A stretch of DNA of 63,613 nt, from positions 1 to 63,613 of IMG/VR virus record IMGVR_UViG_3300044638_006592; one strand, written 5' to 3'. Of this stretch, positions 4,510 to 52,076 are shown one piece after another. Source of the stretch: a virus. How positions within the stretch are numbered: the stretch's first letter is position 1; each line of letters opens with the position of its first letter. The translations under genes were made by a program, and so were the position numbers. The notes under the pieces are model-generated. The model had not been told where the DNA came from. It worked only from the letters and a program-made list of their open reading frames with translations, and did no database searches.

Positions 4510-5310
4510 ATGAAAGAGAAAAATTCAGTTATTCCGATTAACCAAGAAGAAATTCATCATTATCTTAAAGAGATTAGAAAGATTAAGGTAATGACACCAG
4601 AACGTGAAAAAGAATTATCAGAAATAATGAAATCTGGTACTTTAACACAATCACAAATTGAAGACGTTCATCGAGAACTTTTAGAAGGTAATTTGAGATT
4701 TGTCATTACTGTGGCGAAACAATATCAAAACCAAGGACTTGATTTTCCTGATTTGATTGCTGAAGGTAATTTAGGTTTAATGAAGGCGATTAAAAATTTT
4801 GATTGGAGTAAAGACCTTAGATTTATATCTTATGCGGTGTGGTGGGTAAAACAATCAATTTTACAATCTTTGAACGACAACGCAAGAACTATTCGTCTAC
4901 CAGTAAATGTTGTGCAAGATTTATATAAGGCGAAGAAAGAATCTGAACTGACAGGGAAAGAATTAGAAAATAGATTCCAAACATTACCATCAATGTCTAA
5001 TTTAGATGATACTATTAATGAAGATGGGGATACACTTGTAGACATTATTAAAAATGATGACGCATTATCTCCTGACCATAGTTTTAATAGTAAGGATATT
5101 TTAAAAAATAAATTAAAAAATCTTCTTGATAATTTAGACGAAAGAGAAAGAGCGATAATTGAAGATTATTATGGATTGTCTGGTAGTCCAAGAACATTAG
5201 AGGATATTGGTGAAGATTTTAATCTTACTAAAGAGAGAGTGCGACAGATAAAGGAGAAAAGTTTAAGAAAATTAAGAAACGAAAGTTCGATATTATTCGA
5301 CTATATGTAA
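4510..5310 (+). CDS. RNA polymerase sigma-70 family factor (group 2-like)
   Basis: Directs RNA polymerase to promoters. Residues 14-45 form region 1.2 (HHYLKEIRKIKVMTPEREKE). Region 2 follows (LRFVITVAKQYQNQGLDFPD, then SYAVWWVKQSI for -10 recognition). The region 3 part is short. Region 4 carries a full helix-turn-helix (LEDIGEDFNLTKERVRQIKE). At 266 residues it is smaller than a housekeeping RpoD because region 1.1 is absent. It could be the factor that reads the recurrent GATATTTATA motif upstream of many genes here, but the sequence does not prove it. A terminator follows 10 nt after the stop. Confidence 0.93.
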   Translation: MKEKNSVIPINQEEIHHYLKEIRKIKVMTPEREKELSEIMKSGTLTQSQIEDVHRELLEGNLRFVITVAKQYQNQGLDFPDLIAEGNLGLMKAIKNFDWSKDLRFISYAVWWVKQSILQSLNDNARTIRLPVNVVQDLYKAKKESELTGKELENRFQTLPSMSNLDDTINEDGDTLVDIIKNDDALSPDHSFNSKDILKNKLKNLLDNLDERERAIIEDYYGLSGSPRTLEDIGEDFNLTKERVRQIKEKSLRKLRNESSILFDYM

Positions 5311-13954: not shown

Positions 13955-14884
13955 ATGAACACTGAAAATTTATATGATGCCCTTGGAGTTTCAGAAACCG
14001 CAACCCAAGATGAAATAAAGAAGGCTTACCGAAAATTGGTGATTGAACATCATCCTGATAAGGGTGGTGATGAAAGTAAATTTAAAAAAATCGCTCATTC
14101 TTATGATACTTTAGGTGACCCCAATAAACGAGCACAATATGACAACCAAAGAAAGAATCCATTTGGAAACCAAAACGGAGGGTTTAACCCATTTGAAGAC
14201 TTCTTTAATGGTGGTGGATTCTATAATCAAAGAAAAAGAAGTGCTCCTGAAAAAGTAATTGACCTTACAATTGGTGTGATTGAATCATATAAATCTGTTA
14301 ACAAAACTATAACATATAGAAGAAATATTGAATGTAATACTTGTCATGGTAGTGGTGGAGATAGAAAAACATGTGATACTTGTAAAGGTGAAGGATTCTC
14401 AACAGTAAGAGTTGGAACTGGAATGTTTGTACAACTTATGAGACAAGTATGTAATACATGTAGAGGAAATGGTTATGTATTAACAAAAAAATGTACGACC
14501 TGTGATGGAAATACCACAAAAAATGTTACAGAAACAATCGATATCAAATTACCACATGGAGTTGATGAAGGTCAATTCTATAGACTTGAAGGAAAAGGTG
14601 ATTTCTCAAAAGGTATGTATGGTGATTTAATACTAAGAATTAAAATAGCTCCACAAGATAACTTCGAGAAATTAAATAATGATTTAGTGTATAACGCTTA
14701 TCTAGGTTTTGATGACCTTCAAAAAGATTCATTGGAAATACCACATCCATCAGGAACAGTTTCCGTTAAATTACCAAAAGAATTTGATTCCTCAAAACCA
14801 CTTAGAGTTAAAGGAAAAGGATTTAGTACCAACGGAGTTGGGGATATGTTTATTAAACTTATTGTTAAGTTCAATAGGAATTAA
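13955..14884 (+). CDS. dnaJ: DnaJ-type co-chaperone
   Basis: Stimulates DnaK ATPase and hands over substrates. J domain at residues 4-68 with the HPD motif (IEHHPDKGG). A Gly/Phe-rich linker follows (NPFEDFFNGGGFYNQ), then a cysteine-rich zinc region with four repeats (CNTCHGSG, CDTCKGEG, CNTCRGNG, CTTCDGN), then the beta-sandwich substrate domains. At 309 residues it is shorter than bacterial DnaJ (about 375). Phages use such chaperones for replication or capsid assembly. No DnaK or GrpE in the window, so it probably works with the host DnaK. Confidence 0.95.
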   Translation: MNTENLYDALGVSETATQDEIKKAYRKLVIEHHPDKGGDESKFKKIAHSYDTLGDPNKRAQYDNQRKNPFGNQNGGFNPFEDFFNGGGFYNQRKRSAPEKVIDLTIGVIESYKSVNKTITYRRNIECNTCHGSGGDRKTCDTCKGEGFSTVRVGTGMFVQLMRQVCNTCRGNGYVLTKKCTTCDGNTTKNVTETIDIKLPHGVDEGQFYRLEGKGDFSKGMYGDLILRIKIAPQDNFEKLNNDLVYNAYLGFDDLQKDSLEIPHPSGTVSVKLPKEFDSSKPLRVKGKGFSTNGVGDMFIKLIVKFNRN

Positions 14885-18123: not shown

Positions 18124-19038
18124 ATGATTTCATGGATAGGTGGTAAAAATAGAATGGCTGAATGGATTGATAGATTCATTCCAAAGGACATAGAGACATT
18201 TGTCGAACCGTTCAGTGGTATGATGTGGGTCTTTTTTAAGATGGATTTGGATAAATATCCGAATTTAAAAACAGTAGTTTATAATGATTTTAATGGGTTA
18301 AATTCTAATTTATTTAGTTGTTCAAAACAATATGATAGATTGTGGGATGAACTATCTTTATATCCTTGTCAACAGGTTGGAGTAGAAAATACACCGCCAG
18401 AATATAGAGAAATGTTTAACCAATATCAAAAAGAAATCTTTAGTCCTGAATTAATTATTACAGATGAAAATAAATTTGAAATTGCTTGTAAGTATGTTTA
18501 TGTGTTAACTCAAGTTTTTTCAGGTTCAAAACCTGAAACATCAAAATATACTGATTACAAAGGTAAATATCGTTGTAAAGTTTTGATTTTTATGGATAAG
18601 TTAAAAAATCCTGAATACAGAAAACACTTTGATAAAATTACTTTTGTTGAAAACATGGATTTTGAGGATGTAATAAAGAAATATGATGGGGATACTACTT
18701 TTTTATATATTGACGCACCTTATTGGAAAACAGAATCATATTATTCTAATCACGATTTTGATAGGAACGACCATGAAAGATTGGCAAATGTATTAAAAGA
18801 CGTAAAATCCAACTTCGCAATGTCATACTACGATTTTCCATTACTACGTCAGTGGTTTCCAACATATCAATATAAATGGGAAAAGAAAGAGTTTGCAAAA
18901 GCTGCGGCGGCAAAGAAAGGTGTAACACAAAATATGGGTGAAGAATTATTAATTATGAACTACACGTTAAACGAAGAAAAATCTGCGGTAAAGATTCCCC
19001 AACTTAAACGTGGTGAACAACTTTCATTGTTCAATTAA
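18124..19038 (+). CDS. DNA adenine methyltransferase, D12 class
   Basis: Transfers a methyl group from SAM to adenine N6. The start MISWIGGKNRMAEWI holds the SAM-binding W-x-GGK motif; FVEPFSGMMWVFFKMD is motif I. The catalytic motif is DAPY at about residue 199 (usually DPPY), so one conserved proline is replaced. At 304 residues it is a normal D12 size. An atypical C-terminus contains FAKAAAAKKGVTQNMGEELL. Two further methylases lie at 28530 and 29339; together they probably protect phage DNA. Confidence 0.85.
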   Translation: MISWIGGKNRMAEWIDRFIPKDIETFVEPFSGMMWVFFKMDLDKYPNLKTVVYNDFNGLNSNLFSCSKQYDRLWDELSLYPCQQVGVENTPPEYREMFNQYQKEIFSPELIITDENKFEIACKYVYVLTQVFSGSKPETSKYTDYKGKYRCKVLIFMDKLKNPEYRKHFDKITFVENMDFEDVIKKYDGDTTFLYIDAPYWKTESYYSNHDFDRNDHERLANVLKDVKSNFAMSYYDFPLLRQWFPTYQYKWEKKEFAKAAAAKKGVTQNMGEELLIMNYTLNEEKSAVKIPQLKRGEQLSLFN

Positions 19039-28319: not shown

Positions 28320-28533
28320 AGAACATGTAAATCATCCAGAACATTATGGTGGGGCGGGAAATCTTTATGAAGCGATAAAAGTTATTGACGCTTGGGACTT
28401 AGGGTTTTGTTTAGGTAATACGGTTAAGTACATATCAAGAGCCGGTAAAAAAGACCCTAAGAAAGAACTAGAAGACCTTAAAAAGGCTCTTTGGTATTTG
28501 AATCATCACATTGAAAAGTTGGAAGGTAAATGA
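28309..28533 (+). CDS. DUF3310 protein
   Basis: 74 residues. VNHPEHYGG followed by EAIKVIDAWDLGF and GNTVKYISRAGKKD is the DUF3310 signature, a common small phage protein sometimes annotated as nucleotide kinase-like. Biochemical role not established. Overlaps the methylase start by 4 nt. Confidence 0.88.
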   Translation: MENKEHVNHPEHYGGAGNLYEAIKVIDAWDLGFCLGNTVKYISRAGKKDPKKELEDLKKALWYLNHHIEKLEGK

Positions 28534-29318
28534 ATGCACCAGTAAGGTATTACGGAAGTAAAGGAGGTTTCTACAATAAGATTATTGAATTTTTTCCTAC
28601 TGATGGTTATGATAAATATATTGAACCTTTTGCGGGTACATTCATAGTAGGTTTAAAAAAACCAATCACAAAAATTGAAGTGTACAATGATATGGAGAAG
28701 AATGTATATTCTCTATATAAAGTAATATCGGATAAAGAATTGTTCCAACAATTTAAAGAAAAGTGTGATTTGGTTTTTTATTCTGAAGATATCAGGAAAG
28801 AATTTAAAGAAGAACTTAAAAAAGAATTATCCATAGTTGATAGAGCATTTTATTTCTTTTATGTGAATAGGACATCTCATAATGGAATTGGGGGATTCTC
28901 AATGAATACTCATGTAAGAAGAGGGATGAGTAAAGCGGTTTCAGATTTTCTATCGGCAATAGACAGACTACCTGAATTACATGACAGATTATCAAAAGTT
29001 ATTGTTACAAATACTGATGGTATTAAGTTAATTGAAAAATATAATAATCCAAATACATTACTATATTGTGACCCACCTTATGAACAGAGTACAAGAACTG
29101 GTGCAAGATATAACGTAGACATGGATAGAGAAGGACATGTTAATTTTTTAAATTCTGTAATCAATAGTAAATCAAAAATATTGATTAGTGGATATGATTG
29201 TGAATTATATGATACATTGATTGAGAATGGATTTACAAAACATCAATTTGATGTTAAAACAATTGATGGTAATTTTGAAAAGAAAACAAAAGTTGAAACT
29301 GTTTGGAAAAATTATTAA
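28530..29318 (+). CDS. DNA adenine methyltransferase, D12 class (Dam-like)
   Basis: 262 residues. PVRYYGSKGGFYNKI is the N-terminal SAM motif, YIEPFAGTFIVGL motif I, RTSHNGIGGFSMN the typical mid segment and YCDPPYEQS the catalytic DPPY. Methylates adenine N6; target sequence unknown. Forms a methylase pair with the next gene, 20 nt away. Confidence 0.92.
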   Translation: MNAPVRYYGSKGGFYNKIIEFFPTDGYDKYIEPFAGTFIVGLKKPITKIEVYNDMEKNVYSLYKVISDKELFQQFKEKCDLVFYSEDIRKEFKEELKKELSIVDRAFYFFYVNRTSHNGIGGFSMNTHVRRGMSKAVSDFLSAIDRLPELHDRLSKVIVTNTDGIKLIEKYNNPNTLLYCDPPYEQSTRTGARYNVDMDREGHVNFLNSVINSKSKILISGYDCELYDTLIENGFTKHQFDVKTIDGNFEKKTKVETVWKNY

Positions 29319-29338: not shown

Positions 29339-30190
29339 ATGATTGAAAATTACGTTGGTAAAGTATTAAATGGTGATTGTATTGAGGTGATGTCAGAAAT
29401 ACCTGAGTCATCTGTACATTTGGTGGTTTGTAGTCCTCCATACAATGTTCAGATTCCTTATGACACCCACAAAGATGATTTACCTATGAGTGAATATTGG
29501 GATTGGACTGAGAAATGGTTAACACAGGTTTATCGACTACTAAAGGATGACGGTAGAGTTTCAATCAATATTCCTTATGAAGTAAATGTTCAAGAAAGGG
29601 GTGGTAGAGTATTTTTTGTGTCTGAATTTTATCAGGTAATGAAAAAAGTAGGTTTCAAGTTCTTTGGTATTATTGATTTGGAGGAAGATAGTCCACATAG
29701 AAGTAAGACTACAGCTTGGGGTTCTTGGATGAGTCCATCAAGTCCATATATATACAATCCAAAGGAATGTGTAATATTGGGTTATAAAAAACAACATGTA
29801 AAAATAGTTAAAGGTCAACCTCAATGGACTGGTGAGTTAGTTGAACAGGAAGATGGTAAGAAGAAAATGATATACAAGGAAGAAGATAAGAAAGACTTTA
29901 TGGAGTTAGTATTTGGACAATGGAAATACTTGAATGATAGTAGACCTTTAACTAAGGCAACTTTTAGTATGGACATTCCAACAAAAGCAATAAAGATATT
30001 AACATACAAAAACGATATTGTTCTTGACCCATTCGCAGGAAGTGGAACCAGTTTGGTTGCTGCTGAGATATTAGATAGACGATGGATTGGAATTGAGTTA
30101 TCACCAAACTATACGGAAGTTGCAAGAAAACGAGTCTCAACATTTAAATTAGAGAAACAACAATTAAATTTAGAATTTGAAAGAGGTTAA
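29339..30190 (+). CDS. DNA methyltransferase, SPPY type (N4-cytosine or N6-adenine)
   Basis: 283 residues. The catalytic motif SPPY comes first (VVCSPPYNVQIPYD) and the SAM motif DPFAGSGTSLVAAEI is at the C-terminus, i.e. the permuted beta-class order. An SPPY motif favours N4-cytosine but also occurs in adenine enzymes. No target-recognition domain of type I/III size, so probably a small self-contained enzyme. Followed by a terminator. Confidence 0.9.
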   Translation: MIENYVGKVLNGDCIEVMSEIPESSVHLVVCSPPYNVQIPYDTHKDDLPMSEYWDWTEKWLTQVYRLLKDDGRVSINIPYEVNVQERGGRVFFVSEFYQVMKKVGFKFFGIIDLEEDSPHRSKTTAWGSWMSPSSPYIYNPKECVILGYKKQHVKIVKGQPQWTGELVEQEDGKKKMIYKEEDKKDFMELVFGQWKYLNDSRPLTKATFSMDIPTKAIKILTYKNDIVLDPFAGSGTSLVAAEILDRRWIGIELSPNYTEVARKRVSTFKLEKQQLNLEFERG

Positions 30191-33166: not shown

Positions 33167-33194
33167 TTTTTCAGGAAAAATATTTGTATATTTG
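33163..33194 (+). promoter_or_regulatory. Bacteroidota-type promoter of smpB
   Basis: TTTG near 33163-33166 and TATATTTG at 33187-33194, about 20 nt apart. Confidence 0.6.
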
Positions 33195-33200
33195 TTGAGT

Positions 33201-33644
33201 ATGGGAAATAATATTCAAATAAAGAACAGAAAAGTTTCATTTGAATATGAGATTATTGAGACTTATACTGCCGGAATCGTACTTCAAGGAACTGAGGTTA
33301 AAATGATTAGGGAAGGTAAAGTATCAATGGTTGACAGTTATTGTTATTTTAGTGATGGTGAACTATTTGTTAAAAATTTATTAATAAACGAATCTAAATC
33401 TTTTTTCACTCACAAACCTGACAGAATTAAGAAACTTTTGTTGAAGAAACAAGAATTAGTTAAGATTGAGAATAAACTTGTTAAGGGATTAACGTTATTA
33501 CCATTCAAGTTATTCACGAATGAGAAAGGTGTAATAAAAATTGAGGTTGTATTAGGTAGAGGTAAAAAATTGTATGATAAGAGAGAGAGTTTGAAACTGA
33601 AAGATATAAAGAGAATACAAAATTGTCAACTAAAAATAAAATAA
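33201..33644 (+). CDS. smpB: SmpB, tmRNA-binding protein
   Basis: 147 residues from the ATG at 33201 (MGNNIQIKNRKVSFEYEIIE). Diagnostic segments: TYTAGIVLQGTEVKMIREGK, KPDRIKKLLLKKQEL, KGLTLLPFKLF and GRGKKLYDKRESLK. SmpB carries tmRNA to stalled ribosomes (trans-translation). A phage copy is unusual; no ssrA gene is visible in this window. The stop codon TAA forms part of the first attC-like site of the cassette array. Confidence 0.93.
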   Translation: MGNNIQIKNRKVSFEYEIIETYTAGIVLQGTEVKMIREGKVSMVDSYCYFSDGELFVKNLLINESKSFFTHKPDRIKKLLLKKQELVKIENKLVKGLTLLPFKLFTNEKGVIKIEVVLGRGKKLYDKRESLKLKDIKRIQNCQLKIK

Positions 33645-33736
33645 CGGTGGCGATTGGCGAAGTAAAAGCCCTGCACTACCGTTAAAGTTTAACACGATGC
33701 TCAATGGCTTTTATTTTGCCAATTGCGTGTTATCGG
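33641..33736 (+). other. attC-like site A (long form), start of cassette array
   Basis: Boundary boxes ATAAC (33641-33645) and GTTATCGG (33729-33736) flank a 21-bp imperfect inverted repeat (33650-33670 with 33706-33726) whose only mismatches are G-T-compatible. Loop of 35 nt. Fits the R''-L''-L'-R' layout of integron attC sites but differs in sequence from the five sites downstream. Confidence 0.65.
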
Positions 33737-33767
33737 TTCGGTGCGGTTTATTTTGTTAATAACTTTA

Positions 33768-33799
33768 TTTGGTGGTTACGATATTAATACGTATCTTTG
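33768..33799 (+). promoter_or_regulatory. Bacteroidota-type promoter inside cassette 1
   Basis: TTTGG (33768-33772), 19 nt, TATCTTTG (33792-33799). The cassette therefore brings its own promoter. Confidence 0.7.
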
Positions 33800-33826
33800 T
33801 CGTATAAATAATTAAAACAAACAATT

Positions 33827-34279
33827 ATGGAAACATTCAATTTCAATGATGGTGGCAGAGAAGCCGCAGGTTACAAAGGGAAAACAGGCGATTGCGTTGC
33901 TCGTTCAATTGCCATTACCACAGGATTGCCTTATCAGCAGGTTTATGAAGCCTTAGCAAATGGTAACGCTACACAACGCAAAGGCAAAAGAGAAGGGAGT
34001 AAGGCAGGTGTAAGAACTGCTGCAAGAGGCATTAACACTAAGCGTAAATGGTTTGGTGATTATATGGCTTCTCTTGGATTTGTTTGGACACCAACAATGC
34101 TTATAGGTCAAGGCTGTAAAGTTCATTTAAAGGCAGATGAATTACCGATGGGTAAACTTATTGTAAATGTATCCAAACACTTTACAGCAGTTATTGATGG
34201 TGTTATAAATGACACTTACGATTGCAGTAGAGAAGGAACAAGATGTGTTTACGGATACTATAAATACATTGGCAAATGA
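33827..34279 (+). CDS. Cassette 1: papain-like cysteine-protease-fold protein
   Basis: 150 residues. TGDCVARSIAITTGLPYQQV has the Cys-helix arrangement of papain-like (C39/transglutaminase-like) proteins. The likely catalytic His is in VNVSKHFTAVIDG, with a following Asp in NDTYDCS. Proteins of this type are common in phages, but their substrate is unknown. Base composition is more GC-rich than neighbours outside the cassette. The stop overlaps the start of a 30-residue ORF. Confidence 0.65.
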   Translation: METFNFNDGGREAAGYKGKTGDCVARSIAITTGLPYQQVYEALANGNATQRKGKREGSKAGVRTAARGINTKRKWFGDYMASLGFVWTPTMLIGQGCKVHLKADELPMGKLIVNVSKHFTAVIDGVINDTYDCSREGTRCVYGYYKYIGK

Positions 34280-34368
34280 GAGTTGAAATAAACCTTACAG
34301 AAGAAGTTGCAAAAGCTATTCAAAAGAAAGCAGAAGCACAAAACTTAATAATTAAAAACGAATGTTAA
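34276..34368 (+). CDS. Cassette 1: very small ORF, 30 aa
   Basis: Encodes MRVEINLTEEVAKAIQKKAE and ten more residues; overlaps the stop of the protease-like gene (ATGA) and the start of the methylase gene. Probably translationally coupled; helical; function unknown. Confidence 0.4.
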   Translation: MRVEINLTEEVAKAIQKKAEAQNLIIKNEC

Positions 34369-35156
34369 ATAGAATTACTGAACAGCCATTTTACCAAACC
34401 CGTGTTAGTGGCAGTACTTTTGTGAACGCTGACTGCTTTGATGTTTTTCCTTTTATTGAGGACAAATCAATTGATGCTATTATTTGCGATTTACCTTATG
34501 GAACTACTAACTGTAAATGGGATTCTGTTTTGGATTTGAATAAACTTTGGGAACAATATAAACGAATACTAAAAGATAATGGAGTGGTAATTTTATTTGC
34601 ACAAACACCATTTGATAAAGTGCTTGGTTGCTCAAATTTGGAATGGTTAAAATACGAATGGATTTGGGAGAAAACACAAGCAACAGGATATTTTAATGCA
34701 AAGAAAATGCCTATGAAAGCACACGAAAATATTTTAGTATTTTACAATAAAACTCCAAAGTTTAACCCACAAAAAACAGAAGGACACAAGCCTGTAAACA
34801 CCTATACCAAGAAAGCAGAAGTTTGTAATAAAACAGAAGTGTATGGGAAAGTAAAACAAGATGTAAGTGGTGGTGGAGAAACTGACAGATACCCAAGAAG
34901 TGTGCAAGTTTTTTCTTCAGATAAACAGAAAACAAAACTTGATGGAACTATACATCCTACACAGAAGCCACTTGCTTTACTTGAAATGCTTGTAAAATCA
35001 TATACAAACGAAAGCGATATGGTATTGGATAACACAATGGGTTCAGGAACAACAAACTTGGCTTGTATCAAATTAAATCGCAAATCAATTGGTATCGAAA
35101 AGGAAAAACAATATTACGATGTCGCTGTTCGGAGGGCTTCGGAGTATTGCCACTAA
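34362..35156 (+). CDS. Cassette 1: DNA methyltransferase (DLPY type)
   Basis: 264 residues, beta-class order: catalytic DLPYGTTNCKWDS near residue 43, mid motif MPMKAHENILVFYNK, PTQKPLALLEMLVKSY and SAM motif LDNTMGSGTTNLACI. DLPY is a relative of DPPY/SPPY; N6-adenine is most likely. Its TAA stop is inside the boundary box of the next attC-like site. Cassettes with methylases are known from chromosomal integrons. Confidence 0.88.
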   Translation: MLNRITEQPFYQTRVSGSTFVNADCFDVFPFIEDKSIDAIICDLPYGTTNCKWDSVLDLNKLWEQYKRILKDNGVVILFAQTPFDKVLGCSNLEWLKYEWIWEKTQATGYFNAKKMPMKAHENILVFYNKTPKFNPQKTEGHKPVNTYTKKAEVCNKTEVYGKVKQDVSGGGETDRYPRSVQVFSSDKQKTKLDGTIHPTQKPLALLEMLVKSYTNESDMVLDNTMGSGTTNLACIKLNRKSIGIEKEKQYYDVAVRRASEYCH

Positions 35157-35205
35157 CGTCCGATGATAAACAATCGTTTTAATGTTGTTTATCATTTGTT
35201 ATGTG
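35151..35205 (+). other. attC-like site B
   Basis: 47-bp conserved core at 35155-35201: AACGTCCG, then 11-bp arms ATGATAAACAA and TTGTTTATCAT around loop TCGTTTTAATG, ending TTTGTTA. Right boundary GTTATGTGT. Confidence 0.85.
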
Positions 35206-35288
35206 TAGGTGTGGTTAATTAAGGTAGAATGTTTAATCGGAGAACCGAACAAAAAATTTAAAAGAAAAAAGTGGGAATTTTAAATCTT

Positions 35289-35298
35289 AATATTTATA
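35289..35298 (+). promoter_or_regulatory. AATATTTATA motif inside cassette 2
   Basis: Copy of the phage's recurrent promoter-like box 14 nt upstream of the start at 35313, showing that the cassette gene is adapted to phage expression. Confidence 0.45.
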
Positions 35299-35312
35299 TA
35301 TAAAAGAAAACA

Positions 35313-36164
35313 ATGAAAGATTTGAAAAAGTTTATTAAAACAACAATACGAGAATTTTTGAATGAGAATGACAATACTTTTAAGCTTAACTTAAATGATA
35401 AAAATTTATCTAAAGTTATTGAAAGAATTAGTAAAATTTATAATTGTTCTATTGAAGATATAAATAATGGTGAATGTGATAATTTTGCCGTAGAAGTTGC
35501 TGAATATTTTTTTGGGGAAGATACAACACAAACATTATTTTTTAGAGAATTAAATGGGTTCAAATTAGTTACCTATGGTGATTATTCTAAATTTGATGAT
35601 GAATTAGACCCTCATACTTGGATTTTTTATAATGGAAAACACTATGACTCAGAAACACCGAATGGTGTTGAATCATATTATGATTTACCAATTTATAAAA
35701 GACAATTTAAAGATAAAACATTAAATGAAACATACTCAGAAGATAAAGATGAAATTATAGAATTTCTCAATGATTTACCAGAAGAAATAACACTATATCG
35801 TGGTTTAATAGTACCAAAAGAAAAGAAAACTATAAATAAAAAATCATTAGGTGTTCATTGGTCATTGGATGAATATTTTGTTAAAAATATGTTTGAATAT
35901 GATACCTTTAGGATTTATGATAGAGAAGATTATAATTTATGGTTTATAGAAGCTGTTTTTAATAAATCAGATATTGATTTTGAAGGGACAATAGATAAAA
36001 GAATTATAAAAGATAGTGGTTTCTTTTGGGATGAACTAACTGGTGAGATGATACAAAATGATTCAGATGGAATAAAACAACACCCATATTCACATGAAAA
36101 TGAAATTTTGGTGAAACCAAACTCAACCCCAAAAATAATTAAAATAGAGAAAATAAAATTATAA
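35313..36164 (+). CDS. Cassette 2: tagged probable ADP-ribosyltransferase
   Basis: 283 residues. N-terminus MKDLKKFIKTTIREFLNENDN has the L-N-E tag. Residues about 155-275 show the R-S-E pattern of ADP-ribosyltransferases: EEITLYRGLIVPK (Arg), LGVHWSLDEYFVKNM (Ser) and SHENEILVKP (Glu-x-Glu). The N-terminal half (about 30-130) is a separate unrecognised domain. T4 packages the ART Alt in its head and injects it; a tagged ART in this phage fits the same idea. Substrate unknown. ART call from motifs only. Confidence 0.68.
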   Translation: MKDLKKFIKTTIREFLNENDNTFKLNLNDKNLSKVIERISKIYNCSIEDINNGECDNFAVEVAEYFFGEDTTQTLFFRELNGFKLVTYGDYSKFDDELDPHTWIFYNGKHYDSETPNGVESYYDLPIYKRQFKDKTLNETYSEDKDEIIEFLNDLPEEITLYRGLIVPKEKKTINKKSLGVHWSLDEYFVKNMFEYDTFRIYDREDYNLWFIEAVFNKSDIDFEGTIDKRIIKDSGFFWDELTGEMIQNDSDGIKQHPYSHENEILVKPNSTPKIIKIEKIKL

Positions 36165-36230
36165 AAGTGGGTGGGTTTTCTTTTAAAATTTCAACCGAAA
36201 TGTTGATTAGAACGATGAACGGAACACTTA

Positions 36231-36286
36231 CACATAACGTCTGATGATAAACAATCGTTTTAATGTTGTTTATCATTTGTTATATT
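36231..36286 (+). other. attC-like site C
   Basis: Core 36236-36282 (AACGTCTG variant). Left box ACACATAAC is the reverse complement of the start of cassette 2 (GTTATGTGT). Confidence 0.85.
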
Positions 36287-36311
36287 TAGTTTTTATTATT
36301 AAATTTAAATT

Positions 36312-36569
36312 ATGGAAAAATTAAATACATTTTTAATAGATAAGATATTTGAAAAAATTAATTCAGATGGACATAAAATATTAGAGGTTAAAGAAATTAT
36401 AGAATCAACAAAACAAAATAAAACATGTAAAGTTCATTTATTTAACGAAATATACCTTGAAACTAAAAAAGATGATTATCAGGAATTGATAAAAAGACAT
36501 TTTTCATTTTTGTTAGAAAACGAAGAATACGAACTTTGTAGTGAATTAAAAAAATTAAAATTAATATAA
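36312..36569 (+). CDS. Cassette 3: hypothetical protein, 85 aa
   Basis: Not recognised; lysine-rich helical protein (EKLNTFLIDKIFEKINSDGH, FSFLLENEEYELCSELKKLK). It is followed after 4 nt by a second small gene in the same cassette. No promoter of the clear TATCTTTG type is seen. Confidence 0.55.
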   Translation: MEKLNTFLIDKIFEKINSDGHKILEVKEIIESTKQNKTCKVHLFNEIYLETKKDDYQELIKRHFSFLLENEEYELCSELKKLKLI

Positions 36570-36573
36570 GATT

Positions 36574-36759
36574 ATGAAAAGATTACACGTAAAATTTATC
36601 AAATGGTTGTCCAATAAATTTGGTTATAAAATTGTGATGTTAAAAGGTAAAAATGGTACAACCACCATCGAAGGGAACAGAGAAGTTTTACCTTATGTGG
36701 ATATAACAGGATATTTCTTCAAAAAAGAACCACTTAGACGTAATGTTGGAAAAAATTGA
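36574..36759 (+). CDS. Cassette 3: hypothetical protein, 61 aa
   Basis: Not recognised; basic N-terminus (MKRLHVKFIKWLSNKFGYKI) and a small beta region. The stop codon runs directly into the boundary box of site D. Confidence 0.5.
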   Translation: MKRLHVKFIKWLSNKFGYKIVMLKGKNGTTTIEGNREVLPYVDITGYFFKKEPLRRNVGKN

Positions 36760-36814
36760 ATATAACGTCTGATGATAAACAATCGTTTTAATGTTGTTTA
36801 TCATTTGTTAGGTT
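36759..36814 (+). other. attC-like site D
   Basis: Core 36764-36810 (AACGTCTG). Left box AATATAAC is the reverse complement of the start of cassette 3 (GTTATATT). Right box GTTAGGT fits GTTRRRY exactly. Confidence 0.85.
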
Positions 36815-36854
36815 TTGTCATTAATTTGTTTTACCTTTGTAAAAAATAATTATT

Positions 36855-37028
36855 ATGGAAAGAACATTTAATAGAAAAGAAGTTGAGGAAATGTGTAAAC
36901 AATCCTATATGAGAGGAATGAGTATTCAACACGACACAATGACAAAAAAGAAAATGAAACCACCAAAGGTTTTTGTTGAATGGGTAAAACAACTTATTGA
37001 TGAATGTCCAGTTGGTAAGTTTAAATAA
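36855..37028 (+). CDS. Cassette 4: small protein, 57 aa
   Basis: Encodes a basic protein MERTFNRKEVEEMCKQSYMR ending WVKQLIDECPVGKFK. The only gene in the smallest cassette (about 276 bp). A TACCTTTG box at 36832-36839 may be its own promoter. The EVEEMCKQSY...G pattern occurs in short phage proteins of unknown function. Confidence 0.6.
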   Translation: MERTFNRKEVEEMCKQSYMRGMSIQHDTMTKKKMKPPKVFVEWVKQLIDECPVGKFK

Positions 37029-37034
37029 AAATTG

Positions 37035-37091
37035 AATATAACGTCCGATGATAAACAATCGTTTTAATGTTGTTTATCATTTGTTAGCACC
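37035..37091 (+). other. attC-like site E
   Basis: Core 37040-37086 (AACGTCCG). Its left box (AATATAAC) does not complement the start of cassette 4 (GTTAGGT) but matches that of cassette 3, suggesting past recombination or gene conversion. Right box GTTAGCACC. Confidence 0.85.
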
Positions 37092-37178
37092 AGTACGGTT
37101 AAATATTTTAAAAATTATTTGATGGTTTCATTTATTTTACTTACCTTCGCATCATAATAATTTTAAAACATAAAAAAT

Positions 37179-37398
37179 ATGAAAATGTTATCAGAATCAG
37201 TTAAAAGTACAAAATTTGTTGGTTTAGACAAATTAATGGAACATGGTTATTTACTTAATCAAGGTGTAAATAATAAGTTTTAAATTTAACCCAGAATGTG
37301 ATGCTAATATTGAAAAATATTTATCGCAAGATAAAATAAATGAAATAATTGGTGAAAACATTAAAAAAGATTTTATTAACTTTATAAAAAATAACTAA
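37179..37398 (+). pseudogene. Cassette 5: small gene with apparent frameshift
   Basis: The frame starts MKMLSESVKSTKFVGLDKLM and stops at TAA after AATAAGTTTTAA (37281-37283). One frame over, without the extra T, it continues as FNPECDANIEKYLSQDKINE and ends at 37398. The two halves read like one 72-residue protein broken by a single-base insertion in a T run. It could be a true mutation, a sequencing error or a programmed shift. Confidence 0.5.
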
Positions 37399-37399
37399 A

Positions 37400-37606
37400 A
37401 TGGAAGAAATAACTAACAAAAGATTAGTGTTTAACGCTGATGAAATAAAAGAAATAATAAAAGAACACTTAAAATCAAAAGGTGTTGATGTACAAATAAT
37501 AGAATTTTTTGGTACAACTTTAAATTATGTAAATAGAGATGATTACATGGGTGAACCAAAATTTAATCTAAAAACAGTTGTTTGTCAAAGCTATAATAAA
37601 GAATAA
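37400..37606 (+). CDS. Cassette 5: hypothetical protein, 68 aa
   Basis: Not recognised; alpha/beta (RLVFNADEIKEIIKEHLKSK, VQIIEFFGTTLNYVNRDD). Starts 1 nt after the broken gene and abuts the next gene without a gap. Confidence 0.5.
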   Translation: MEEITNKRLVFNADEIKEIIKEHLKSKGVDVQIIEFFGTTLNYVNRDDYMGEPKFNLKTVVCQSYNKE

Positions 37607-37834
37607 ATGGAAGAAATTTACACAAACATCATTCATCATAAACCAGTCCCAATCACTGAGTTTAAACCAACATCACCAATGATGAACCCAATTACTTATG
37701 AATTAATTAACCCAGAAGCTTGGGAAGATGGGTTGTATTTATCACCAAATTTAATGGATGAAAACTTTTCAATAAATATGGTATTTGAGGTAAAGGATAA
37801 AAAAGTGGTTAGGGTATATAAATCGAAGGCATGA
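37607..37834 (+). CDS. Cassette 5: hypothetical protein, 75 aa
   Basis: Not recognised; proline-rich middle (PVPITEFKPTSPMMNPITYE) and beta-like end (FSINMVFEVKDKKVVRVYKS). Directly abuts the previous stop. Last gene of cassette 5. Confidence 0.5.
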   Translation: MEEIYTNIIHHKPVPITEFKPTSPMMNPITYELINPEAWEDGLYLSPNLMDENFSINMVFEVKDKKVVRVYKSKA

Positions 37835-37843
37835 TGTAGTATT

Positions 37844-37902
37844 GGTGCTAACGTATGATGATAAACAATCGTTTTAATGTTGTTTATCATTTGTTATACA
37901 CA
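37844..37902 (+). other. attC-like site F
   Basis: Core 37850-37896 (AACGTATG). Left box GGTGCTAAC is the exact reverse complement of the start of cassette 5 (GTTAGCACC). Right box GTTATACACA. Confidence 0.88.
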
Positions 37903-37953
37903 GTATTTTGTGTGGTGGGTTGATATTAACAAAATAAATTAGTATTTTAGTAA

Positions 37954-38358
37954 ATGAAAATAGAAATACCTTTATATAATATTAAAGTTAAGTTTTACTT
38001 TGATTATGATTTAAGTAAACCAATTAATAAGATAAAGAAAAAACATAAAAAGAAAAAACTTTATAAAATAGGTGAAATTGATTTTAATGGAATTGTTATC
38101 GGAGAGTTTATACCAAAGAAAAAGTTGGTTTATGTGTTAGTAAATAGAACCGATAAAGGTATTTGTGTCGATACTTTAACTCACGAAATATATCATTTGA
38201 CTTCTAAAATTATGAAATATAATGGTTTTAAGTTTAAGAAAAGTGATGAACCTTTTGCGATATTAAATGGGAAATTAAATTCAATGATTATTGGTAAATT
38301 AATAAAAAAGGGTAAGAAATTAGATTACCCAACAACTAAACAAATAAAAATAAAATGA
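37954..38358 (+). CDS. Cassette 6: HExxH zincin-like protein
   Basis: 134 residues. The segment CVDTLTHEIYHLTSKIM contains HEIYH, a zinc-metallopeptidase-type HExxH. A downstream DEPFAILNGKLNSMI helix could supply a third ligand (Glu). Phage proteins of this type are common and uncharacterised. It is followed by an overlapping 90-residue gene. Peptidase activity is inferred from one motif. Confidence 0.6.
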   Translation: MKIEIPLYNIKVKFYFDYDLSKPINKIKKKHKKKKLYKIGEIDFNGIVIGEFIPKKKLVYVLVNRTDKGICVDTLTHEIYHLTSKIMKYNGFKFKKSDEPFAILNGKLNSMIIGKLIKKGKKLDYPTTKQIKIK

Positions 38359-38627
38359 TAAAAATGATAAAACAAGAATGTTCATCATTACTATTAAACA
38401 TGAGTGATGAACAAATAAATGAGTTAATAAAAATAAGTAAGGAAGATTTAATTGAATCTAAAGGTACTTTTGATGAAGACACACTTTACCAATTATCATT
38501 GTCTAATGTAAAATTACATTGGGCTAGATTTATTAGACAATACTCAAATAACCCACTTAATAAAATAATTGATGTTGATAAGATTATCAACGAGGAAACG
38601 TTAAACGTTAAAACTTTATTAAAATAA
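38355..38627 (+). CDS. Cassette 6: hypothetical protein, 90 aa
   Basis: Not recognised; helical (SLLLNMSDEQINELIKISKE, LHWARFIRQYSNNP). Overlaps the zincin-like gene by 4 nt. Confidence 0.5.
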   Translation: MIKMIKQECSSLLLNMSDEQINELIKISKEDLIESKGTFDEDTLYQLSLSNVKLHWARFIRQYSNNPLNKIIDVDKIINEETLNVKTLLK

Positions 38628-38628
38628 T

Positions 38629-38778
38629 ATGAGTGATTTAATTTATTTATTCAATTGTTGGTGGAAAACAGTAATTAGAGGAAACCCCAATAAACGGTCA
38701 TTTTTGATTTTTTCAAAAATGTTACGATTAGAAATAGAATGTTTGTTATATACTGGTAGATTTACATCTGAAATTTAG
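38629..38778 (+). CDS. Cassette 6: small protein, 49 aa
   Basis: Encodes MSDLIYLFNCWWKTVIRGNP and a basic, hydrophobic remainder ending YTGRFTSEI. Starts 1 nt after the previous stop. Low certainty as a real gene. Confidence 0.4.
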   Translation: MSDLIYLFNCWWKTVIRGNPNKRSFLIFSKMLRLEIECLLYTGRFTSEI

Positions 38779-38798
38779 TGCGATGGATGAAAAAATAT

Positions 38799-38808
38799 TG
38801 TGTATAAC
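38799..38808 (+). other. Right boundary of cassette 6 (half attC-like site)
   Basis: TGTGTATAAC is a perfect 10-bp reverse complement of the start of cassette 6 (GTTATACACA at 37893-37902). The conserved 47-bp hairpin is missing here, so the last site is truncated or an attI-like junction next to the recombinase gene. Confidence 0.7.
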
Positions 38809-38844
38809 TATTTTATATAAACAGGTACCTTTAAACAATTGATA

Positions 38845-39651
38845 ATGAACGAAAAAGGTTTACCAACTTTAAAGATTTGTGAACAAAAGTTTAATTACTT
38901 AAATTACTCACCTCGAACCAAAGAGAACTATCTGAGTCATATAAGTAGGTTTATTACATCACAGACTAAATCCGCAACACACTTAAATTCCAAAGATTTT
39001 CAATCTTATTTGGATAACTATCAATTCACTTCTGTTTCTCAGCAAAACCAAGTGATTAATTCAATTAGATTTTTATACAAATTTGGATTGAATAAAAAAT
39101 ATGATAAAGTAAGTTTCAAAAGACCAAAATCAGAAAAGAAACTACCCAGAGTTATTGATGGTGAATTTATAAAAGAAAGATTATCTAAAATTGAAAATCT
39201 TAAACACAAAGCAATTTTAACCTTAACATATTCGGTTGGGCTAAGAGTATCAGAAATTGTTAATCTAAAGATTGAAGATATAGATTCCAAAAGAATGTTG
39301 ATTAATATCAAAAACGCAAAAGGTAGAAAAGATAGACTAGTCCCATTATCAAAAAATGTACTTAATCTACTAAGAGAGTATTTTAAAGAATATAGACCAA
39401 CAGAATATCTATTTAATGGTCAAACGATAAATCAATATTCTGTAAGAAGTTGTCAAGAAATTTATAAAAAATACATTGAATTGTCTGGACATATACATAC
39501 ATTAAGACATAGTTGTGCTACTAATCTATTAGAAAACGGAACTGACCTAAAAATAATACAGAAAATCTTAGGGCATTCAAGTGTTAAAACTACAGAAATA
39601 TATACTCATGTTTCCAATCAAATATTGTCAAGAGTAAATTTACCCATATAA
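38845..39651 (+). CDS. Tyrosine recombinase (XerC/D- or IntI-like)
   Basis: 268 residues from the ATG at 38845. N-terminal SAM-like domain (LNYSPRTKENYLSHISRFIT). Catalytic residues: Arg in YSVGLRVSEIVNLKIED, Lys in AKGRKDRLVPL, His-x-x-Arg in HTLRHSCATNLLENG, His in LGHSSVKTTEIY and Tyr in IYTHVS. All are present. Integron integrases are longer (about 330) because of an extra helix segment that I do not see here. Lies directly after the cassette array and in the same direction; the obvious candidate for acting on the attC-like sites. Confidence 0.9.
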   Translation: MNEKGLPTLKICEQKFNYLNYSPRTKENYLSHISRFITSQTKSATHLNSKDFQSYLDNYQFTSVSQQNQVINSIRFLYKFGLNKKYDKVSFKRPKSEKKLPRVIDGEFIKERLSKIENLKHKAILTLTYSVGLRVSEIVNLKIEDIDSKRMLINIKNAKGRKDRLVPLSKNVLNLLREYFKEYRPTEYLFNGQTINQYSVRSCQEIYKKYIELSGHIHTLRHSCATNLLENGTDLKIIQKILGHSSVKTTEIYTHVSNQILSRVNLPI

Positions 39652-46936: not shown

Positions 46937-47556
46937 ATACAAAATATTTAGAATTATTACATAAGTATTTTAACGGGAAGTTGAATATACAGGGTATTGA
47001 ATTAGTATTACCAAATGCGGTTTTGCTACATAATCCTAATTTATTCTATTTCCCAATAAACAATCCGAATGATATTTCATATTCAAAAATGTCTTTAAAT
47101 GGGTTTTTGGAAGAAGAGATGAATAGTTTCTATTCAATTATGAGTTTTGAAGATAAAAACAAAATGAAATATAAATTTTCAGGTCCTGAATTTTATATTA
47201 ATTTGGGTTTACATAATAAGATAAAGAGTGTACTATCAGGAATAACTGATATTACATTAAGCGATATTCAAATAGATATTGTTCATAAGCAAATTGACAT
47301 TGACTTTATTGATGATGGTTGTGATATAAAGAATATTGTTGAACCAATACGAGCTTGGAGAATATTTGATAATAAAGATAAAGAACAAGTTGATTTAAAT
47401 TGGGCTCTTATTAATTACGAGCAATTAAGAAAAACTGAAAGGTTTTGGGAACATGAAACAAACTATCTTAGTTTGGATGGTTTATTCGAAAATGAAGAAA
47501 TCTTTATTGATGGAGAATGGATGTACTTTTATTGTAAAACGGTTTTTTCGTATTAA
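46930..47556 (+). CDS. Hypothetical protein, paralogue of the 49589-50248 protein
   Basis: 208 residues. The segment NPNDISYSKMSLNGFLEEEM matches NPKGLSYNKNVLEGYLEEYL of the minus-strand gene at 49589-50248, and both have a similar size and layout. Unknown family; a duplicated gene pair on opposite strands. Ends convergently with the 47553-48152 gene (4 nt overlap). Confidence 0.6.
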   Translation: MVNTKYLELLHKYFNGKLNIQGIELVLPNAVLLHNPNLFYFPINNPNDISYSKMSLNGFLEEEMNSFYSIMSFEDKNKMKYKFSGPEFYINLGLHNKIKSVLSGITDITLSDIQIDIVHKQIDIDFIDDGCDIKNIVEPIRAWRIFDNKDKEQVDLNWALINYEQLRKTERFWEHETNYLSLDGLFENEEIFIDGEWMYFYCKTVFSY

Positions 47557-48152
47557 ATAATATCTTCACTCTCTAATAATGTATAACTGAATTTATTTCC
47601 GTGTATTTTACTTGCCTTTTTACATATTGACATAAAGATATCAAAATCCATTACTCTTTTAAAAACTTGACAACCCATACTCCAATTTTCAACCCAAGTT
47701 GAATCCTGACCTGATTTATGAATATTAATACCAAACGAACCTGTTTGAGTTTCAACCTCATCAAATGTTAAATCTTTGTTTTTATCTCTCCATACGGTTA
47801 CATCACCATTTCTTTGACATAATGCGTCATATTTGTTCTGATGTTTATCAACAGACCAAACACTTCTATATTGATTCGGAACTAATCTTGCAACACCTTT
47901 TGGATTGTCATTTTCCAAAACACCCTTTTTACCTGGGTCTGTAGTTGCTGACCAACAGAAAAATTTCCATTCTCCATTTTCTTTGTAAGAAATTGTCAGA
48001 CAATCGTCAAATAAATTTGTTACTTTTTTACCTGTTGATGAATTTCTAACACCAACAATATTAACATCAAATCCTTTATTTTCGGTATCTTCAAACCAAA
48101 CATAGTTTTTAGATTTAACAGCTCTTTCAATTTGTTCTCTAGTATAACACAT
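47553..48152 (-). CDS. Possible cell-wall enzyme, WSxGCQVF family
   Basis: 199 residues. C-terminal half has GSFGINIHKSG, then VENWSMGCQVFKRVMDFDIF. This His...Gly-Cys pattern resembles the catalytic part of L,D-transpeptidase-like or related peptidoglycan enzymes in phages, but the exact family is uncertain. No signal peptide. A GAATATTTATAG box lies about 15-25 nt upstream on the minus strand. Confidence 0.45.
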   Translation of the reverse strand: MCYTREQIERAVKSKNYVWFEDTENKGFDVNIVGVRNSSTGKKVTNLFDDCLTISYKENGEWKFFCWSATTDPGKKGVLENDNPKGVARLVPNQYRSVWSVDKHQNKYDALCQRNGDVTVWRDKNKDLTFDEVETQTGSFGINIHKSGQDSTWVENWSMGCQVFKRVMDFDIFMSICKKASKIHGNKFSYTLLESEDII

Positions 48153-51341: not shown

Positions 51342-52076
51342 ATGTTTAAAATTTATCAAGTTGGTGGAAGTGTTCGAGATGAAATTCTTGGAGTAAACTC
51401 AAAAGATATCGATTTTGTTGCCGTTCCGTCATCAGAACTCATATCAGAATATTCTGAAGCGTCTGAGATGTTTAAGATATTGGTATCTTATTTAAAAGTT
51501 GAAGGATATGATATGTTCCTGATAACTGACAATTGTTATACAATTCGAGCTAAATTTCCAAAAGGTCATGTTAATGAAGGATTGGTTGCTGACTTTGTAA
51601 TGGCGAGAAAGGAAATTGGGTATGTACCTGGTACAAGAACACCAATTGTTAAACCTGGTACATTGTTTGACGATTTGGAACGCCGAGATTTTACTTTAAA
51701 TGCTTTGGCTAAAGATGATGATGGTCAAATCATAGACTTTTTTGGTGGAATTAAGGACTTAGAAAACAAAGTGCTTAGAACACCATTGTCACCAATTAAG
51801 ACATTTGAAGATGATGGATTAAGAATCATAAGATGTATTAGATTCTCAATAACCAAAGGATTTTCAATACCTTATGATATTGAAAAAATTATAAAAGATT
51901 ATGATTACAAAAATAAGATGAAGGTTGTTTCAATTGAACGTATCAGGGAAGAGTTGTTTAAATGTTTTAAATTCGATACGATTAAAACAATTGAAACACT
52001 TCAACGATATCCCGAACTTTTCAAATACGTATTTAAAGATAATGTTTTATGGTTAAAACCGACAATGGAATTATGA
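51342..52076 (+). CDS. tRNA nucleotidyltransferase/poly(A) polymerase-like protein
   Basis: 244 residues. YQVGGSVRDEILGVNSKDID is the class II nucleotidyltransferase motif (GGxVRD...DxD). RRDFTLNALAKDDDGQIIDF and GIKDLENKVLRTPLSPIKTF, then DDGLRIIRCIRFSITKGF, are the following neck motifs. Only head and neck are present; body and tail domains of host CCA-adding enzymes (400+ residues) are missing. It could add CCA to phage tRNAs, fitting the CCA-less tRNA-like gene at 16439. Confidence 0.9.
   Translation: MFKIYQVGGSVRDEILGVNSKDIDFVAVPSSELISEYSEASEMFKILVSYLKVEGYDMFLITDNCYTIRAKFPKGHVNEGLVADFVMARKEIGYVPGTRTPIVKPGTLFDDLERRDFTLNALAKDDDGQIIDFFGGIKDLENKVLRTPLSPIKTFEDDGLRIIRCIRFSITKGFSIPYDIEKIIKDYDYKNKMKVVSIERIREELFKCFKFDTIKTIETLQRYPELFKYVFKDNVLWLKPTMEL

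Follow-up and report, generated by a model that had tools for sequence, protein, structure and literature searches.

A cassette array of probable integron type beside a non-IntI tyrosine recombinase in a phage genome

Integrons are bacterial devices that collect antibiotic-resistance genes, and they are held to depend on the integrase IntI. The window analysed here, a 63,613-bp IMG/VR virus record (IMGVR_UViG_3300044638_006592; G+C content 28.5%), contains six small gene cassettes with attC-like sites next to a tyrosine recombinase gene, and thereby raises the question of whether a phage can carry an integron that is run by another enzyme. The locus is best read as an integron carried by the phage and run by a non-IntI recombinase, encoded at 38845-39651, a reading to which we assign a probability of about 0.9. 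A recombinase, an attI site, cassettes with folded attC sites on the same element and cassette mobility, which make up a broad functional definition of an integron, all appear to be present on sequence evidence. The first-pass annotation of the window had proposed an integron-like cassette array, which remained the best reading and gained support from attI, from the pairing of cassette ends and from cassette sharing; the adjacent recombinase, attI itself, the polarity of the array (attI at its right end) and the inversion of the cassette genes came in addition to it. The six cassettes run from an attC-like site located at the stop codon of smpB (33642) to the junction at 38805-38808, the right end having been placed correctly at 38808 from the outset. 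The features are as follows.

33642-33732, plus strand: attC-like site 1, distal; a 91-bp hairpin, its TAA being the smpB stop codon
33645-35156, plus strand: cassette 1, between sites 1 and 2; a 150-aa protein (33827-34279) and an N6/N4 DNA methyltransferase (34362-35156)
35154-35201, plus strand: attC-like site 2; 48-bp core, chance expectation 0
35157-36237, plus strand: cassette 2; a 283-aa protein (35313-36164); head GTTATGTGTA, tail TACACATAAC
36235-36282, plus strand: attC-like site 3; 48-bp core
36238-36765, plus strand: cassette 3; 85-aa and 61-aa proteins; also in L119
36763-36810, plus strand: attC-like site 4; 48-bp core
36766-37041, plus strand: cassette 4; a 57-aa protein; hybrid head; also in L096, L034 and L151
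37039-37086, plus strand: attC-like site 5; 48-bp core
37042-37851, plus strand: cassette 5; 68-aa and 75-aa proteins; head GTTAGCACC, tail GGTGCTAAC
37849-37896, plus strand: attC-like site 6; 48-bp core
37852-38807, plus strand: cassette 6, proximal to attI; 134-aa and 90-aa proteins; head GTTATACACA, tail TGTGTATAAC
38799-38830, minus strand: attI; variable cassette tail TGTGTATAAC joined to conserved TATTTTATATAAACAGG
38845-39651, plus strand: tyrosine recombinase gene, 268 aa (PF00589, E 3e-38); divergent from the direction of array growth

The attC-like sites were judged by structural and statistical tests. As claimed at first pass, six cassettes were bounded by such sites, and five sites (starting at 35154, 36235, 36763, 37039 and 37849, plus strand) shared a core, 48 bp in length, for which shuffles gave a chance expectation of 0. 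The hairpin of site 1 is longer and unlike these five; it folds as TAAC, 5 nt, a long stem-loop, 2/3 nt and GTTA (-18 kcal/mol, z -3.0). In a circular cassette closed at attC, both outer arms of the folded site come from that cassette, one from its head and the other from its tail, so that on this model the two must pair. Pairing was scored in related viral loci (L numbers), 77 of which were found with the recombinase as query; several of them come from the same contig or are near-duplicates, and the counts given here use unique sites and cassettes. Perfect complementarity over the four bases beyond GTTA/TAAC was observed in 71% of 232 unique cassettes, compared with 4.7% for shuffled tails (maximum 9.5%, 1000 shuffles) and 4.0% for the two sides of one site. 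Cassettes adjacent to attI followed the same rule at 73%, and true IntI integrons of Bacteroidota scored 34/39 in the same test. Pairing was kept despite changes at both ends in homologous cassettes of L152 and L194, which read GTTATGTAC/GTACATAAC and GTTATACAC/GTGTATAAC.

Within the window, the inverted head and tail ends noted earlier held for cassettes 2, 3, 5 and 6. Circular sites reconstructed for cassettes 2, 5 and 6 folded as single-stranded DNA at -14.5 to -16 kcal/mol (z -5.9 to -6.8), cassette 5 giving -16 kcal/mol (z -6.8) and cassette 6 -15.1 kcal/mol (z -5.9). The ends of cassette 1 showed no match over the variable bases. Those of cassette 4 do not pair because it is a homologous hybrid of the cassettes of sequence clusters 51 and 0; its body matches an L096 cassette whose head pairs with the shared tail. 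Terminal inverted repeats of transposons were rejected as an explanation, since the ends differ between cassettes and match only within one. Alternatively, the hairpins might regulate phage genes as RNA elements in their 5′ regions, the array being an artefact; they do lie upstream of genes, and some overlap gene starts. However, the paired arms lie on either side of a gene and not around one hairpin, the boundaries are exact when cassettes move, and a search of Rfam gave no match, so that this explanation deserves almost no credence at all.

An unrestricted scan located 162 distinct sites on the array side and 9 on the other side, and in 144/162 sites the spacer was 5 nt versus 2 or 1 nt. This geometry (5/2 or 5/1) is close to that of the attC sites of Bacteroidota IntI, which is mostly 6/2. 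The inner stems show covariation, while the loop that they enclose is constant; in 48-bp sites (window 35154-35201; L123:2914-2960) the loop ATCGTTTTAATGT is invariant, which suggests that it contains a recognition element. In L123 and L140, up to about a dozen sites differ in sequence and keep the same plan. Stems are 11 bp long in the 48-bp sites. An unbroken 10-bp stem was found in 120/143 phage sites and a one-base bulge in 23/143, whereas in 43/45 Bacteroidota IntI sites (both strands counted) one bulged base interrupted the first 10 bp. Because the site finder prefers unbroken stems, bulged sites may be undercounted, although the 10-bp comparison allowed both kinds. Most phage stems thus lack the extrahelical base next to the spacer that is typical of IntI sites, although the 48-bp sites may have a bulged T further into the stem. 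As the I2 insert reads extrahelical bases in IntI (PMC7790495), a joint loss of insert and bulge would be coherent.

Just upstream of the recombinase gene, the related viral loci share a junction of TAAC with TATTATATAT. In about 50 distinct viral loci, almost all of those aligned, TAAC is followed directly by TAnnATATAT at approximately 30-70 bp before the recombinase start, and the same junction is present in most close members on bacterial contigs. To the left of TAAC, the aligned viral loci are variable and resemble a cassette tail. In the window, the junction at 38805-38808 reads TGTGTATAAC joined to TATTTTATATAAACAGG, the recombinase gene starts 37 bp past it, and the hairpin is absent from the attI end of the last cassette. 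This conserved junction is attI. The conservation of the junction, its tail-like left side and the missing hairpin together indicate that the array starts at attI and grows leftwards, so that new cassettes would sit beside the recombinase gene. Wherever viral loci have both, the sites precede the recombinase gene on its own strand, with one further site about 10 kb downstream in L124; in classical integrons the recombinase gene likewise points away from the array.

The catalytic residues R134, K159, H218, R221, H244 and Y253 of the recombinase are invariant in 27 relatives. The integron integrase model TIGR02249 gave 160.7 bits (cut-off 265), and the best NCBIfam score was obtained with the XerA model NF040815 (186 bits, cut-off 220). 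A tree of 89 proteins placed the phage family together with five members from bacterial contigs in one clade (Shimodaira-Hasegawa-like approximate likelihood ratio test, SH-aLRT, 99) adjoining Xer-like proteins of Bacteroidota, while all IntI proteins formed a separate clade (SH-aLRT 98). The IntI insert is missing, residues 179-193 of the query being aligned with 180-244 of IntI4, and it is gone in all 27 aligned relatives. The KG..R to LRH spacing is 59 residues, compared with about 64 in bacterial relatives and about 106 in IntI where measurable. The predicted structure (predicted local distance difference test, pLDDT, 85) was nearest to IntI4, then to XerA. The recombinases of L182, L187, L191 and L193 carry an in-frame stop or frameshift and are decayed or misassembled.

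The recombinase is not an IntI. A canonical IntI integron acquired by the phage, as reported for Vibrio, P1 and Shewanella phages, would share the attI, attC and cassette anatomy, and true IntI over the cut-off is common in Bacteroidota (105/395 genomes, their attC sites sharing TAACG...TTGTTA). An IntI lineage is nevertheless refuted by score, tree and missing insert, to which the short motif spacing and the inverted genes must be added, making such an acquisition extremely improbable. Ordinary double-strand recombination of Xer type at short sites, with hairpins being incidental, is a further alternative: the recombinase is XerA-like, lacks the IntI insert and is of the same sequence and length class as XerA and XerC/D. 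Xer acts on dif; in Acinetobacter plasmids, recombinase sites flank small groups of genes, the pdif modules, but these sites are short, are used by Xer as double strands and have no hairpin formed by the pairing of head and tail. The size and the hairpin of the phage sites argue against membership of the pdif group, for which no dif search was made, and the phage recombinase differs from Xer in being accompanied by attI and folded cassette sites. Double-strand recombination at TAA/C does not predict that tail and head, which lie 50-130 bp from each other on either side of the hairpin in the circular form, should be complementary; nor does it predict that the asymmetric spacer stays constant while the stems change in a compensatory way. 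We therefore consider this alternative unlikely.

Cassette turnover was followed among related phages, with cassettes named by sequence cluster. The order is 224-58-0-54-10-attI in the window, (10)-51-52-53-0-54-10-attI in L096 and 58-10-51-52-53-98-99-attI in L119. The first-pass annotation had named a block of constant order in related phages as evidence against an integron; the order was not constant in these three. L096 and the window are 99.6% identical over 6.7 kb across the recombinase, and their arrays differ further from attI. Cassette 6 of the window is internal in L119 and occurs twice in L096, where one copy is cut by the contig end. Cassette 0 adjoins attI in L151, the recombinase of which is 73% identical; cassette 63 is common to L126 and L135, and cassette 66 to L152 and L194. 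Gain, loss and reordering were thus seen across these loci and L171, and cassettes move with exact boundaries. L171 has two identical copies of cassette 68, one adjoining attI and one inside the array, as would be expected from copying and reinsertion. The 48-bp cores could instead be mere linkers for homologous exchange of modules without a site-specific enzyme, given that the five cores are nearly identical and that cassette 4 of the window is a homologous hybrid. This leaves unexplained the head-tail pairing outside the core, the compensatory changes and the fixed attI beside the recombinase, and the cores differ in sequence in the L123 and L140 arrays. Exchange through repeats was therefore rejected as the main cause, for which it is very unlikely, though it accounts for cassette 4.

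The longest cassette gene was on the plus (bottom) strand in 198/204 phage cassettes, while the same test gave the canonical gene strand in 32/38 IntI cassettes and 13/13 chromosomal non-IntI cassettes. Phage cassette genes thus face the recombinase gene, the reverse of the usual arrangement in integrons. At 74/245 phage sites (about 30%), the start of a gene lies within the hairpin and its reading frame runs on through it (e.g. L123:5730, L015:2390 and L161:17), so that otherwise unrelated proteins begin with the same residues, encoded by the site (MKDLKHIKRFNESEENLNISDV, MSKEMRKYIDTFKQKLTESENLNISDV). New cassettes may accordingly be made by joining genes to existing sites. Such starts may bear a faint resemblance to the capsid-targeting tags of T4-like internal proteins. 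The promoters that most cassettes had been thought to possess were not confirmed, as the motif TANNTTTG was not clearly enriched on the coding strand (69/204 cassettes, versus 61/225 on the other strand). Most cassette proteins are small and have no Pfam match; among 132 searched at 1e-4, the few matches were to DNA methyltransferases (five), an RNA ligase, an exonuclease-like protein, an acetyltransferase and others. The methyltransferase of cassette 1 matches PF01555 (E 5e-34). The cargo probably consists of accessory genes for dealing with varied hosts, and a role in counter-defence or host adaptation may be guessed.

Recombinase-bearing contigs reach 464 kb. A terminase over the cut-off was found in 15/42 records with the system and a contractile tail sheath in 14/21 long records searched, indicating that the carriers are large (jumbo) phages. 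No recombinase more than 40% identical was found in GenBank phage records, and 84,980 prokaryote species genomes yielded few contigs with a recombinase at least 48% identical. On a 4.1-Mb bacterial contig, L379 (G152:C1:237000-256900) encodes a 47-48% identical recombinase about 7 kb from a terminase gene; it has the attI junction, with no attC array seen, and is probably a prophage. Judging from the recombinase relatives, the phage hosts would be Bacteroidota. A strict pattern for one attC subtype matched 22/395 Bacteroidota genomes. Chromosomal attC arrays of the same geometry and with canonical gene orientation were observed in the Bacteroidota loci L356, L361, L355, L359 and L365, some near XerA-like recombinases 38-44% identical. 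L356 has about ten attC sites; L361 has five, and next to its Xer-like recombinase lies a cassette end that pairs. Bacteroidota thus seem to possess a non-IntI integron type of which the phages have a branch of their own.

As to the surroundings of the array, the phage smpB gene (window 33192-33644) ends exactly at the first attC. Homologues of smpB also lie near the recombinase in L145, L188 and L193, but smpB beside the array is no general flank among the related loci. Three more DNA methyltransferase genes lie outside the array (18124-19038, 28530-29318 and 29339-30190). A sigma-70-like factor, a DnaJ-like protein, a tRNA nucleotidyltransferase and an endolysin-like protein (4510-5310, 13955-14884, 51342-52076 and 47553-48152, respectively) belong to a large-phage gene set, and ARAGORN found no tRNA.

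In the proposed mechanism, the recombinase would insert circular cassettes at the attI junction, 38805-38808, and remove cassettes from the array. The plus strand of each attC would fold with the tail and head of the same cassette as outer arms, separated from the inner stem by the asymmetric spacer of 5 nt versus 1-2 nt; the recombinase would read the folded shape, and the asymmetry probably distinguishes the strands. The array would extend leftwards from attI, with the newest cassettes adjoining the recombinase gene. Recombination presumably takes place, then, by way of folded single-stranded DNA. Several points weigh against a phage-borne integron of this kind. No circular cassette was seen. 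Cassette 4 of the window arose by ordinary homologous recombination, and some shuffling therefore occurs without the recombinase. No terminase, capsid or sheath was found among the window proteins scanned (PHROGs, Pfam); support within the window for a phage is limited to genes such as the endolysin-like one, and phage status was taken from the related records. Finally, the recombinase lacks an insert thought necessary in IntI (PMC9668308, PMC7790495): the additional domain is described as necessary (PMC9668308), and single-strand recombination is credited to the gain of the I2 helix, though that source notes that causality has yet to be proved directly (PMC7790495).

The phage system shares with canonical integrons a recombinase gene beside attI, attC-ended cassettes with R boxes that pair head to tail, and cassette turnover. 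It differs in its non-IntI recombinase without an I2-type insert, its mostly unbroken 10-bp stems, genes on the opposite strand and gene starts inside attC. The likeness to sedentary chromosomal integrons drawn at first pass was therefore apt in part, except that the recombinase is not an IntI. With the Bacteroidota chromosomal non-IntI arrays (L356, L361), attC geometry, head-tail pairing and an XerA-like recombinase are shared, whereas those arrays have canonical gene orientation and L361 has its attI-like end at the 3′ end of the recombinase gene. Three complete integrons and one In0 have been described in temperate phages, with IntI detected by IntegronFinder, together with 17 attC clusters without an integrase (Qi et al. 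2023; PMC9892861). Those phages likewise have attC arrays and methyltransferase cargo (PMC9892861), but the present system has its own phage recombinase lineage with its own attI and occurs on many large-phage contigs. No earlier report of this integron type was found in the literature, preprints and most subscription papers lying outside the search.

It is quite likely that folded-DNA cassette recombination proceeds here without the IntI insert or the usual extrahelical bases, and that a second, Xer-like lineage in Bacteroidota and large phages runs integrons, having either arisen separately or persisted as an earlier form, with one branch being a standing part of jumbo phage genomes. An insert-less recombinase beside a complete attI-attC array makes the I2 requirement directly testable. 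Tools such as IntegronFinder require the IntI-specific domain (PMC9668308) and would miss this system, so that the class may be widely overlooked. If the reading is true, large phages would have a built-in means to collect and shuffle small accessory genes as ready-made modules, and a route of gene exchange would exist among phages, possibly including their Bacteroidota hosts.

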